From contig NZ_JACCBN010000001.1 of NCBI RefSeq assembly GCF_013409505.1, positions 3,410,001 through 3,474,000 of the forward strand: a stretch of DNA of 64,000 nt, written 5' to 3'. Source of the stretch: Actinomycetospora corticicola. GTDB lineage: Bacteria; Actinomycetota; Actinomycetes; Mycobacteriales; Pseudonocardiaceae. A program made the translations under genes and the position numbers. The notes under the pieces were generated by a model. That model searched no databases, was not told the DNA's origin, and was given only the letters and a program-made list of their open reading frames with translations. Shown here in pieces: positions 59,771 through 63,049 of the stretch (the stretch's first letter is position 1; every line of letters begins with the position of its first letter).

Positions 59771-60255
59771 CCCTCTGGCGGCGCCTGTACGGCGCGAACC
59801 CGCTGCACCTGCTCGCCGTGCTCGGCTGCCTGGCGCTGTCGGCGTACGTGGTGTCGCTCCTGTGGGAGGACCCGAGCTGGGTGGCGCTGCTGATCTGGTT
59901 CGTCGGCGCGGTGATCGGACACGACCTCGTGCTCTACCCGCTCTACGCGCTGGCCGACCAGCCGCTGGTGTTCGCCCGCTGGGCACGGCGACGCTACGGC
60001 CGGGAGCGGCCGGTGCTGGTTCCCGCGGTCAACCACGTGCGGGCGCCCGTGCTCGGCTCGGCCGTCCTCGGCCTGATCTACCTGCCGACCATCACCCGGC
60101 ACGGCGAGGACGCGTTCCGCTTCACCGCCGGGCTGGGCATGGAGGGCATCTTCCAGAACTGGCTGCTGATCACCGCCGTGCTGTTCCTCGGCAGTGCGGT
60201 GATCTACGCGGCGAGGTGCGGCTTCGCCGCACGTGAGCAGAAACGGTCGGTATGA
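59767..60255 (+). CDS. Small membrane protein coupled to the Moco/b561 gene
   Basis: A 162-residue protein with about four hydrophobic segments (LHLLAVLGCLALSAYVVSLLW, WVALLIWFVGAVIGHDLVLY, VLGSAVLGLIYLP and NWLLITAVLFLGSAVIYAA). Its ATG overlaps the preceding stop (ATGA), so it is translationally coupled and may assist assembly or quinone access of the fusion protein. Its stop lies in the loop of the hairpin repeat copy B. No known family recognised. Confidence 0.78.
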   Translation: MTLWRRLYGANPLHLLAVLGCLALSAYVVSLLWEDPSWVALLIWFVGAVIGHDLVLYPLYALADQPLVFARWARRRYGRERPVLVPAVNHVRAPVLGSAVLGLIYLPTITRHGEDAFRFTAGLGMEGIFQNWLLITAVLFLGSAVIYAARCGFAAREQKRSV

Positions 60256-60273
60256 CGACCTCTTCTGCTCACG
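60232..60273. repeat. Hairpin repeat element, copy B (between a membrane-protein gene and sfnG)
   Basis: 18-base arms (CGTGAGCAGAAACGGTCG and complement with two mismatches) around a 6-nt loop that contains the TGA stop of the plus-strand gene. It begins 10 bp after the sfnG stop. The arm sequence is shared with copy A (48977-49018). Likely bidirectional terminator. Confidence 0.85.
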
Positions 60274-60283
60274 CGCGCAGCAC

Positions 60284-61405
60284 CTACGCCTGGGCGGCGA
60301 GCGGGCGCTCGGCCAGCTCGGCCTCCTTCTCGCGGATGATCGGCAGGACCTTCTGGCCGAACTGCTCGATCTCCTCCTTGACGTGCAGGAAGCACAGCAG
60401 GTTGAGGTCGACGCCGAGCTTCTTGTACTCGATCACCCGGTCGGCGACCTGCTCGGCGGTGCCGATCAGCTGGGTCTTGAACCCGTCGTTGTACTGGACG
60501 AGGTCCTCGAAGGAGGACTCCGCCCACATGCCCTTGCCGTCCGCGGCGGACTTGCCGGCCTGCTGGACGGCGTCGCGGAAGCCGTGCACCTGCTCGACGT
60601 TCGCCTTGTCGACGATCTCGCGCAGGGTGTCGCGGGCCTCGGACTCGCTGTCCCGGACGATCATGAAGCCGTTGAGGCCGAACTTGACCGAGCGGTCGTG
60701 CGCGGCCGCCTCGGCGTTGATGACGTCGAGCTGCGCGGTGACGCCGTCGAAGTCCTTGCCGTTGGAGAAGTACCAGTCGGACACCCGGCCGGCCATCTTC
60801 TGCGCGGCGGTGGAGTTGCCGCCCTGGAAGATCTCCGGGTGCGGCCGCTCGGGGGTGTTCAGGGGCTTCGGCTTCAGCGAGTAGTCGTGGAAGCGGTAGA
60901 AGTCGCCCCGGAACTCGAAGTTGTCCTGCTCCCAGATGCCCTTGAGGCAGGAGATGAACTCCTCGGTGCGCCGGTAGCGCTCGTCGTGCTCGAGCCACGG
61001 CTCGCCGAAGGCGGTGAACTCGCCCTTGAACCAGCCGGAGACGACGTTGGTGGCGAAGCGGCCGTTCGTGAGGTGGTCGGCAGTGGCGCCGAAGTTGGCG
61101 AACACGCCGGGGTGCCACATGCCGGGATGCACCGCGGCCATGACCTTCAGCCGCTCGGTGGCCATCATGATCGCGAGCGAGAGCGAGGTCGACTCGTGCT
61201 GGTACTCGGCGGAGTAGCTCGCCATGTACCGGACCTGGGAGAGCGCGTACTCGAAGCCGTTGTTCTCGGCCGCGATCGCGGTCTCGCGGTTGTAGTCCCA
61301 GTTCCAGTCGGTGCGCTGCTCGATGGTGCTGGTGACCAGGCCACCGGAGACGTTGGGGACCCAGTAGGCGAACTTGAGGGGATCGGTCGGGGTGCCGACG
61401 GACAC
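60284..61405 (-). CDS. sfnG: Dimethylsulfone monooxygenase (LLM flavin-dependent)
   Basis: A 373-residue FMNH2-dependent luciferase-like monooxygenase converting dimethylsulfone to methanesulfinate and formaldehyde, a sulfur-scavenging reaction. SfnG blocks are prominent: FAYWVPNVSGGLVTSTIEQRTDW, YALSQVRYMASY, TSLSLAIMMATERLKVMAA and NVVSGWFKGEFTAFGEPW. The GTG start at 61405 is preceded by GAGGAGG. A cysteine-type leader peptide gene lies upstream, and the leader RNA can mask this ribosome-binding site. The formaldehyde by-product could be handled by the mycothiol pathway encoded at 30524-32280. Confidence 0.9.
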   Translation of the reverse strand: MSVGTPTDPLKFAYWVPNVSGGLVTSTIEQRTDWNWDYNRETAIAAENNGFEYALSQVRYMASYSAEYQHESTSLSLAIMMATERLKVMAAVHPGMWHPGVFANFGATADHLTNGRFATNVVSGWFKGEFTAFGEPWLEHDERYRRTEEFISCLKGIWEQDNFEFRGDFYRFHDYSLKPKPLNTPERPHPEIFQGGNSTAAQKMAGRVSDWYFSNGKDFDGVTAQLDVINAEAAAHDRSVKFGLNGFMIVRDSESEARDTLREIVDKANVEQVHGFRDAVQQAGKSAADGKGMWAESSFEDLVQYNDGFKTQLIGTAEQVADRVIEYKKLGVDLNLLCFLHVKEEIEQFGQKVLPIIREKEAELAERPLAAQA

Positions 61406-61408
61406 GGG

Positions 61409-61504
61409 GGCCTCCTCGAGGCAGGGGGGGGCGCCCGACGAACGGGCGGGAGGGACGGAGCGCGCAGGCGGTCAGGAACGACACGCCTGGGTCGCGAGGA
61501 GGCC
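61409..61504 (-). promoter_or_regulatory. Anti-Shine-Dalgarno pairing between leader peptide and sfnG ribosome-binding site
   Basis: On the minus strand, GGCCTCCTCG (61504-61495, inside the leader peptide codons Gly-Leu-Leu) is exactly complementary to CGAGGAGGCC (61418-61409), which contains the sfnG Shine-Dalgarno sequence. A ribosome stalled at the leader Cys codon, four codons after this segment, would cover it and free the site. This is a predicted mechanism from sequence complementarity. Confidence 0.6.
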
Positions 61505-61552
61505 GAAGTCGACGTGGCGCCGCCGCGTCAGTGGCACTCCCGCGTTACCCAT
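61472..61552 (-). CDS. Cysteine-attenuator leader peptide upstream of sfnG
   Basis: A 26-codon ORF ending RRRHVDFGLLATQACRS then TGA, 66 bp before the sfnG start. The HVD...x...CR(S/P) ending is the pattern of actinobacterial leader peptides found ahead of sulfur-assimilation genes (annotated as putative leader peptide), which act as cysteine-sensing attenuators in mycobacteria. The single Cys is the third-last residue. Either ATG 61552 or GTG 61537 could be the start; a TTGACA hexamer lies at 61584-61589 on this strand, but no clear -10. Confidence 0.75.
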   Translation of the reverse strand: MGNAGVPLTRRRHVDFGLLATQACRS

Positions 61553-61612
61553 CGGACACAACCGTTGCGGCCGATCGTCGCACTGTCAACCGGTGACCGA
61601 CCGACTCACACC

Positions 61613-63049
61613 TCAGCCGCCCAGTGCGGCGCTGATCGGGCCGACCGCGAAGTAGGCCACGAAGGCCACCGCGACGACCCACATCAGCGGGTGCAGCGTG
61701 CGGGCCCGGCCCGTCGCCGCGTGCAGCACCACCCAGCTGATGAACCCGACGCCGATGCCGTTCGCGATGGAGTACGTGAAGGGCATGACCACGATGGTGA
61801 GGAACACCGGGAGCGCGACCCGGAACTCGCCCCACTCGATGTCGCGGACCCCGCCCATCATCAGGGCGCCCACGACGACGAGGGCCGGCGCGGCCGCCTC
61901 GACGGGCACCACCTCGTAGAGCGGGGTGAAGAACATGGCGGCGAGGAAGAGGACGCCGGTGACGACGTTCGCGAGCCCGGTGCGGGCGCCGCTGGCGATC
62001 CCGGAGGCGGACTCGACGAAGACGGTGTTGGAGCTCGACGACGCGGCGCCGCCGGCGACCGCGCCCGCTCCCTCGACGACGAGGGCCCGCCCGATGTTCG
62101 GCAGCTGCCCCTTCTCGTCGAGCAGGCCCGCCTGCCGGCCGAGCCCGGTCATCGTGCCCATGGCGTCGAAGAAGTTCGCCAGGACGAGGGTGAAGACCAG
62201 CAGCGTCACCGCGATGATCGGGAGCCGGGTGAACGCGCCGAGGGACACGTCGCCGACCAGCGAGAGGTCGGGGATCCCGACCACCGAGGACGGGAGGCCC
62301 GGGTAGCCCAGGTTCCAGCCCTTCGGGTTGGTGCCGTTGGACGGGCCGACCTGCGCGATCGCCTCGACCACGATCGCGAGCACCGTCGTGGCGACGACCC
62401 CGATGAGGATGCCGGCCTTCGTGCCGCGGGCGACCAGCACCGAGGTCAGGAGAAGGCCGACGCAGAACACGGCCGTCGGCCAGCTCGCGATAGAGCCCTC
62501 GATGCCGAGCCCGACCGGGACGGTGGTGTTGGCGGCGTCGGGCAGGCGGCGCACGAACCCGGCGTCGACCAGGCCGATCAGCGCGATGAAGGCGCCGATG
62601 CCCGCGGCGATGGCGATCTTCAGCGCGTCCGGGATCGCGGCGAAGACCGCCGTGCGGAACCCCGTGAGCCCGAGGATCACGATGATGACGCCCTCGACGA
62701 CGACGAGGCCCATCGCCTCCGGCCACGTCATCTGCGGCGCGATCGTCACCGCCACCAGGGTGTTGATCCCGAGGCCGGTCGCCAGCGCGAACGGGAAGTT
62801 CGCGATGAGCCCGAACAGGATCGTCATGACCCCCGCGACCAGGGCCGTCACCGCGGCGACCTGCGGGACCGACAGCGTCGCCCCGAGGACGTCACGCTTG
62901 GCGCTCGGCGCGGACGGGTCGAGACTGCCGAGGATCAGCGGGTTGAGGACCACGATGTAGGCCATTGTCACGAAGGTGACGAGGCCGCCGCGGACCTCCG
63001 CCCCGACGGTGGATCGGCGCTCGCTCAGGTGGAACAGTCGCTCCAGCAC
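61613..63049 (-). CDS. NCS2-family purine (adenine/guanine/hypoxanthine) permease
   Basis: A 478-residue, ~12-helix proton-coupled nucleobase permease of the AzgA/GhxP group. Typical blocks: GGLVTFVTMAYIVVLNPLILG near the N-terminus, FPFALATGLGINTLVAV, and the C-terminal ANFFDAMGTMTGLGRQAGL and SSSNTVFVESASGIASGARTGL (the substrate-binding helix 10 region). GTG 63049 is the start. It is divergent from the DUF2530 gene. Purine metabolism genes are not adjacent. Confidence 0.92.
   Translation of the reverse strand: MLERLFHLSERRSTVGAEVRGGLVTFVTMAYIVVLNPLILGSLDPSAPSAKRDVLGATLSVPQVAAVTALVAGVMTILFGLIANFPFALATGLGINTLVAVTIAPQMTWPEAMGLVVVEGVIIVILGLTGFRTAVFAAIPDALKIAIAAGIGAFIALIGLVDAGFVRRLPDAANTTVPVGLGIEGSIASWPTAVFCVGLLLTSVLVARGTKAGILIGVVATTVLAIVVEAIAQVGPSNGTNPKGWNLGYPGLPSSVVGIPDLSLVGDVSLGAFTRLPIIAVTLLVFTLVLANFFDAMGTMTGLGRQAGLLDEKGQLPNIGRALVVEGAGAVAGGAASSSSNTVFVESASGIASGARTGLANVVTGVLFLAAMFFTPLYEVVPVEAAAPALVVVGALMMGGVRDIEWGEFRVALPVFLTIVVMPFTYSIANGIGVGFISWVVLHAATGRARTLHPLMWVVAVAFVAYFAVGPISAALGG

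Follow-up and report, generated by a model that had tools for sequence, protein, structure and literature searches.

The dimethylsulfone monooxygenase gene, sfnG, of Actinomycetospora corticicola is preceded by a short open reading frame (ORF) that, with a probability of roughly 0.6, is a cysteine attenuator: a leaderless, UGU-sensing leader whose output would pass through Rho-type termination, through access to the sfnG Shine-Dalgarno (SD) sequence, or through both. Support comes from conservation of the ORF, selection on its residues, the spacing of a putative promoter, the company that such leaders keep with sulfur genes, a rule of UGU usage at one codon and the composition of the spacer that follows. 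The feature that is constant across lineages is the presumed sensor, a single Cys codon situated 11 codons past the His and almost always written UGU. This fixed UGU is the most striking feature of the leader and was absent from an earlier note on the same DNA. The leaderless start, ribosome stalling, cysteine as the signal, an effect of the peptide in the exit tunnel and the participation of Rho are all steps of a model that we infer from sequence.

The window, i.e. the whole stretch of DNA that was analysed, comprises 64,000 nucleotides of a host genome of 6.17 Mb in a single contig, and the closest named matches of its SfnG protein, among the matches listed, are from Actinomycetospora. The earlier note had described a 26-codon ORF just ahead of sfnG, and this is present as described: the ORF, MGNAGVPLTRRRHVDFGLLATQACRS, consists of 26 codons plus TGA and runs on the minus strand from ATG (61552-61550) to TGA (61474-61472), with the GTG start of sfnG (61405) 66 bases past the leader stop. 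A profile search confirmed the identity of sfnG (TIGR04021, 599 bits, above the cut-off of 382.95). The elements of the locus are as follows.

60284..61405, minus strand: sfnG, dimethylsulfone monooxygenase, 373 aa (TIGR04021 and Pfam Bac_luciferase).
61410..61422, minus strand: local hairpin GCCUC-GAG-GAGGC over the SD.
61411..61417, minus strand: SD of sfnG, GAGGAGG, read from the sequence.
61419..61471, minus strand: C-rich, G-poor spacer from leader stop to SD, a possible Rho-loading region (C and G counts).
61472..61552, minus strand: leader peptide ORF.
61481..61483, minus strand: regulatory Cys codon, TGT (UGU).
61495..61504, minus strand: anti-SD of the earlier note, GGCCTCCTCG, the exact complement of the SD.
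61508..61522, minus strand: codons of the RRHVD core, 9-13 residues ahead of the regulatory Cys.
61561..61589, minus strand: putative promoter, with TTGACA at 61589-61584, a 17-nt gap and a weak -10, AACGGT, at 61566-61561.

The TTGACA element starts 23 bases past the end of an upstream permease gene (61613-63049, minus strand, Pfam Xan_ur_permease). A GTGTGA motif lies 22-23 bases ahead of TTGACA in 14 of the 17 genus loci (22 in the window) and 34 bases ahead in one, and is missing in two. The region ahead of TTGACA holds GTGGAA(C/T) in 6/6 g46, 2/2 g13 and 2/7 g22 loci and in none elsewhere; either motif is possibly an activator site. Rfam gave three matches over positions 60000-62000, all far under their gathering scores.

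Comparison of sfnG loci indicated that the leader is widespread within the genus and family. The gene was found in 17 of 18 genomes of the genus, the window's own included, and all 17 loci, the window among them, have an ORF in which a Cys follows the motif LTRRRHVD[FHY]G. Among 297 genomes of a family sample, 117 contain sfnG; a strict scan, which required neither a Cys at H/A+11 nor its codon, revealed the leader before 77 of these genes, and a wider scan added three RRYVD/RRAVD variants (80/117). Conservation of the ORF among orthologues, which the earlier note had proposed as a check, was observed, and it marks the ORF, on comparative grounds, as a genuine leader peptide beyond what chance would provide. 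A class sample of 296 genomes contained sfnG in 43 genomes, at 44 places; leaving out the window's own genome and one member of the family gives 42. The leader was present within 900 bases of sfnG in 7 of these 42 places (6/6 in one family, 1/6 in another, 0/15 in the largest and 0/15 in the other five), one contig holding only about 200 bases upstream of the gene. Among the best 80 matches of a scan of named genomes, the leader was found in 14/14 Actinomycetospora, 60/60 Streptomyces, 1/1 Pseudonocardia, 1/1 Streptantibioticus, 0/3 Gordonia and 0/1 Microbispora. The class and named-genome scans, as well as part of the wider family scan, required a Cys at H/A+11 and ignored its codon. Because no such leader was seen, within the bases searched, in 37 of the 117 family loci and in 35 of the 42 class-sample places, sfnG does not need it. 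Loci without the leader make up 18 of 20 in one genus, g16, and all 11 in another, g27; in 8 of the 18 from g16, the sfnG motif is preceded at about 60 bases by the end of a frame on the same strand, which suggests an operon under other control. A search of plasmids returned 238 records with an sfnG-like gene.

The earlier note had also assigned the ORF to the cysteine-type leaders that precede sulfur genes, and similar leaders were indeed found ahead of other sulfur genes in the same genome. The nearest described family is NF042934, a cis_reg_atten 'putative leader peptide' of Actinomycetes. Its core, as read from NF042934 matches, is R-R-(H/A)-V-D with a Cys 11 residues past the H/A, and the window peptide has the same motif. 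The L-x-R-V-(A/S) element that lies between core and Cys in those matches is missing from the window peptide, which has FGLLATQ in contrast to the NF042934 consensus LxRVxS(C/A); R-V is found in many other sfnG leaders. The window peptide scored 14.5 bits against the profile (13.5 in the genome scan), under a cut-off of 27. Of 29 representative sfnG leaders, 27 match NF042934 at E<=1 (best 1.1e-7), and two from the class sample (L212 and L221) exceed its cut-off. Scores against the Cys-rich leader families NF042933 (Ms5788A) and NF042936 (Ms4527A) were weak, 13-15 bits under cut-offs of 45. We take these two families to be the leaders of Canestrari et al. 2020.

The genome of the window contains 21 NF042934 matches at E<=10, four of them over the cut-off and the sfnG leader among the rest. 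Eight NF042934-like leaders (L178, L175, L181, L183, L176, L174, L177 and L143) fall within about 53 kb, at 174-227 kb of this genome. Downstream genes were chosen by codon-position GC and matched with only their first 160-260 residues; with scores that are all below cut-off, they resemble SsuA, an alkanesulfonate monooxygenase (SsuD-like), two SfnB/DszC-like oxidoreductases, a nitrite/sulfite reductase, an OsmC-like protein and an MFS transporter, while one more was judged by eye to be rhodanese-like. No clear gene was found downstream of L176 and L181. Because these downstream genes match sulfur genes, the leader type is tied to sulfur supply. Several of the eight clustered leaders precede such genes (SsuA-, SsuD-, SfnB/DszC-, sulfite-reductase- and OsmC-like), and the cluster is perhaps a ribosome-directed sulfur regulon.

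The regulatory Cys is almost always encoded by one and the same codon. In all 77 strict leaders, a Cys lies 13 codons past the first R of RRHVD and is encoded by TGT; with the three variants included, the codon is TGT in 78 of 80 family sfnG leaders, the two TGC exceptions being RRYVD variants from a single genus (g41; genomes G057 and G090, loci L134 and L138). The remaining Cys codons of these 80 ORFs comprise 7 TGT and 28 TGC (Fisher p 5e-18, uncorrected for relatedness), and the sfnG coding stretches of the 117 loci have 0 TGT and 34 TGC. Third-place T reaches at most 39% in the other codon columns of the leader. That highest value is found at the Asp codon of RRHVD (39% of 80 leaders vs 7% at the His column), which is high for GC-rich genomes. 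The rule extends to a Streptomyces group of 60 Streptomyces loci and one Streptantibioticus locus, in which the regulatory Cys is TGT in 61/61, compared with 10 TGC and 2 TGT one codon earlier and 29 TGC and 4 TGT one codon later. A second Cys in this group, at H+13, two codons past the regulatory one, is also mostly TGT (17 of 19 cases).

The same preference is found in leaders of the NF042934 type in general. The set examined comprised 103 loci, 90 from 59 genomes of the class sample and 13 from the window's own genome (six weaker loci being left out); it includes three sfnG leaders, that of the window among them, and leaves out at least one place that scored over the cut-off. Ninety-six loci fit the motif, with 93 TGT, 2 TGC and one lacking a Cys at H+11, and seven were set aside; three of these are long frames, and TGT is used in each of the remaining four. 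Thus, TGT is used in 97 of 99 NF042934-type leaders with a Cys at H+11, as against 20 TGT and 70 TGC at the other Cys codons of these leaders and 29 TGT and 200 TGC in the longest frames downstream, some of which are not real genes. The sulfite-reductase-like leader of the window's own genome is an exception that uses UGC. One tRNA-Cys, with anticodon GCA, was found in the 25 tRNA loci examined of 49 tRNA matches, a second being possible; since it is the only one found, UGU would be read by wobble. Conservation of UGU for the sake of pairing with the SD was considered and is unlikely: of the 55 distinct Streptomyces-group rows, 27 have a C opposite the third U, with which neither U nor C can pair, yet these rows retain UGU, although this comparison uses one helix register and another may apply in part of those rows.

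Selection also acts on the peptide. For the RRHVD codons of the 77 leaders, pS was 0.638 and pN 0.029, a ratio of 0.05 (all pairs pooled, tree ignored); the codons vary between leaders and the residues stay. Codons 5-12, taken as a block over the same leaders and in the same way, gave a ratio of 1.03 and thus no restraint, with Arg, Val and Gln recurring. Furthermore, 71 of 77 leaders have TTGAC 35-38 nt ahead of an ATG or GTG that is in frame, compared with 1 of 1540 shuffles, a spacing that fits transcription starting on the leader's own start codon. A generic scan for consensus promoters scored none at the TTGACA site. Transcription would probably start at or near the leader ATG, to give a leaderless mRNA.

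We propose that the mRNA would begin at the start codon of the leader and that the 26 codons would be translated while RNA polymerase is still making them. With cysteine plentiful, ribosomes would pass the single UGU and leave at the stop codon three codons on, exposing the C-rich spacer and keeping sfnG expression low. When Cys-tRNA is scarce, a ribosome would halt with UGU in its A site, perhaps held there by RRHVD, which by then would be in the exit tunnel, 9-13 residues behind. With a ribosome parked there, the fate of the RNA downstream would change, so that SfnG is made and sulfur is scavenged from sulfones. As the output shared among lineages we favour a shielding of the transcript from early Rho-type termination within the C-rich spacer, to which masking of the SD by the leader would be added in some of them.

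That the system works by Rho-type transcription attenuation alone, with Rho loading on the spacer past the leader stop unless a ribosome sitting on UGU blocks it, is the strongest competitor, to which we give somewhat less than an even chance. Rho-dependent attenuation by a stalled ribosome operates at E. coli tnaC, where a peptide-conserved leader is likewise followed by a Rho-suited region; tnaC differs from the sfnG leader in its signal and its stall site, and Rho is here a proposal. C exceeds G between leader stop and SD in 17/17 genus loci, 74/76 of the family loci scored and 61/61 of the Streptomyces group, and in the first 66 bases past the stop in 92/96 NF042934-type leaders. Among the controls, C outnumbered G in 17 of 34 genes of the window that have a gap upstream and in 22 of 40 sfnG loci lacking a strict leader; three of these 40 have variant leaders. 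No terminator-like site was found in a search for intrinsic terminators. The case for Rho acting alone is one of composition, which suits Rho and is no proof of its action; the richness in C could instead keep the spacer open or pair it with the G-rich SD. A study from 2005 suggests Rho for mycobacterial cys leaders and, in the portion available, calls the prediction weak (PMC1262725), while a 2026 paper, in its accessible part, places the cysteine genes of Mycobacterium smegmatis under translation attenuation.

The earlier note had advanced a different output, in which GGCCTCCTCG forms a 10-bp helix with the SD of sfnG and so masks it, and a ribosome stalled at the Cys codon frees the SD. As a full account this is unlikely, and the purely translational action that the note had supposed is here no more than a proposal. 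The complementarity itself is exact: GGCCTCCTCG (61504-61495) is the reverse complement of CGAGGAGGCC (61418-61409). The minimum-energy fold predicted for 61380-61570 pairs 9 of the 10 helix bases in this manner and is more stable than that of shuffled sequences (z -2.8; 2 of 200 shuffles fold as well). The helix GGCCTCC/GGAGGCC is not conserved, being exact in 3 of 17 genus loci (L001, which is the window, L015 and L024) and 7 bp long in L013 and L017, while the best leader:SD match anywhere in the leader is 5-6 bp in the other 12. The note had named, among the grounds for giving up its proposal, loss of the ORF or of the complementarity among orthologues; the complementarity proved not to be conserved, and the ORF proved conserved. 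RNAalifold did not choose the 10-bp helix as a structure of the genus, whether applied to all 17 loci or to the two subtypes separately (8 and 9 loci).

Recoding and swapping likewise failed to establish selection for the helix. An equally strong helix arose in 8% of window recodings that followed the codon use of three neighbouring genes with the Cys codon recoded too, and in 20% of those that followed genus sfnG codon use with TGT kept (p 0.20). More than chance is thus not established for the complementarity of GGCCTCCTCG in the window, which about a fifth of recodings equal. Over all strict leaders, 13 of 77 reached p<=0.05 in a first test, in which the Cys codon was recoded as well; with TGT fixed and genus codon usage applied, 4 of 77 did so (the three loci of g17 and one of g20), about as many as chance would give. 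When SDs were swapped between genera, 11 of 77 leaders, clustered in relatives, reached p<=0.05, with p 0.016 each for the window, L015 and L024, which shows that the match in these three is unusual among leader-SD pairs and is not evidence of selection. Leader:SD matches of 7-11 bp near the Cys codon are also found in some Pseudonocardiaceae (g17, three g26 loci and parts of g5). The hairpin arms CCUC/GAGG over the SD are found in 17/17 genus loci with differing loops; because the SD arm cannot vary freely and no compensatory change was seen in these loci, their conservation is weak evidence.

Modelled energies for opening the SD-start region were computed from 24 bases before the RRHVD codons and omit 10 of the 77 loci, in which spacers exceed 150 bases. 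One stalled ribosome lowered the modelled cost from 20.2 to 17.0 kcal/mol in the window, from 19.6 to 14.0 in L015 and from 14.6 to 10.3 in L024, and a fully occupied leader brought it to 8.7-11.9 kcal/mol in these three, as SD masking would predict. Counting against masking, stalling lowered the modelled cost by no more than 1 kcal/mol in the other 14 genus loci. Mean values were 11.8 kcal/mol free and 11.2 stalled for the genus, and 10.3 and 9.3 kcal/mol for all 67 modelled loci; outside the genus, 15 or 16 of 50 modelled family loci dropped by at least 2 kcal/mol.

Further support for masking comes from the Streptomyces group. In about half of its 61 loci, those that have an ACAGGAG-like SD, leader bases like CUCCUGUUGC, the UGU included, pair with GCAACAGGAG at the SD, and a stalled ribosome brings the modelled cost of opening from 12.7 down to 7.4 kcal/mol in 31 loci, with a drop of at least 2 in 27 of them. 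No modelled switch was seen in the other 30 (6.4 to 6.1 kcal/mol). Pairing extends to 96.8% of cells in 28 distinct rows (32 loci), as against 12.9-57.5% when the register is slid by 1-4, and to 83.5% in all 55 distinct rows, as against 20.9-56.2%, although the helix was read from those very sequences and beats slid versions for that reason alone. At one pair of the helix U-A (22 rows) and C-G (19 rows) interchange, partly along one deep split, with C-G in 2 of the 28 rows. Changes on both sides were found at 1 pair in the true register and at 0-4 pairs when slid, so that they are no commoner than in slid versions and covariation is not established by them. Permutation of SDs within the group reached the observed pairing in 0 of 5000 trials (relatedness ignored). 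Synonymous recoding gave 1 of 61 at p<=0.05, a test that is uninformative here because Ser-Cys-Cys itself spells an anti-SD. Masking of the SD by the leader is still credible outside the genus, on this helix and on the modelled energies. About half of the Streptomyces-group loci have their helix elsewhere in the leader, at the Cys codon, so that masking varies by lineage; it seems to come and go, at different sites of the leader, while the sensor stays.

A further alternative is arrest by the nascent peptide, as with TnaC, in which the RRHVD-to-Cys peptide would stall the ribosome on a small molecule and not on uncharged tRNA. Known arrest peptides contact the exit tunnel in the range 9-13 residues back, where RRHVD would lie, and the core is kept at the residue level at a fixed distance from the Cys. 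Arrest of this kind alone would not require UGU over UGC at one codon, and we regard it as improbable. That the ORF is a functionless chance frame, as might have been supposed when it was noticed in one sequence only, is refuted at the comparative level by its conservation, residue selection, fixed UGU and fixed promoter spacing, and is hardly credible.

Leaders of this general kind are already known. Canestrari et al. 2020 is cited for cysteine-responsive attenuation in M. smegmatis, which one citing paper describes as translational in the passages available (PMC9031893, PMC13236596). The 2005 study predicts leaders with runs of Cys codons before cys operons of Mycobacterium and others, as its available portion states (PMC1262725), and a study from 2015 describes, in the portion available, Cys-rich leaderless upstream ORFs in mycobacteria, one of them before cysA2 (PMC4633059). 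The M. smegmatis attenuators resemble the window leader in being short, leaderless Cys ORFs that act on downstream genes, leaderless here being a prediction, and differ in having contiguous Cys codons, whereas the window leader has a single one, sfnG as its target and an SD pairing that is not conserved. In Rhodobacterales, the cysS attenuator uORFC-8-2 is, according to the accessible text, likewise a short upstream ORF with Cys predicted to sense by ribosome stalling; it has tandem Cys codons in which UGC dominates and an intrinsic terminator, whereas the sfnG leader has one UGU and no terminator was found (PMC8632094). None of the eight leader peptides given in a reannotation of Streptomyces lividans contains RRHVD (PMC8079986). 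No publication on a leader peptide for sfnG or sulfone use, or on UGU in cysteine leaders, was found among the top matches of a literature search by titles and abstract starts, in which subscription journals were thinly covered. The cysteine-type leader is genuine and of a known kind, and sfnG as its target was unreported in that search.

A broader reading, which we hold only tentatively, is that the leader represents a class-wide actinomycete cysteine sensor of one codon, in which R-R-(H/A)-V-D in the tunnel primes a stall at a fixed, wobble-read UGU and outputs differ by gene. If so, the peptide would make one slow codon do the work of the contiguous Cys codons of mycobacteria, with SD masking as the output in some genes and, for the majority, a Rho-type spacer rich in C. 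In 97 of the 99 leaders of this type that were examined, the codon presumed to sense cysteine is UGU at its fixed position, in genomes whose Cys codons are mostly UGC. For sfnG itself, the attenuator proposed here would make the use of sulfones by soil actinomycetes answer to a ribosome that senses cysteine and not to a DNA-binding regulator like SfnR of Pseudomonas.
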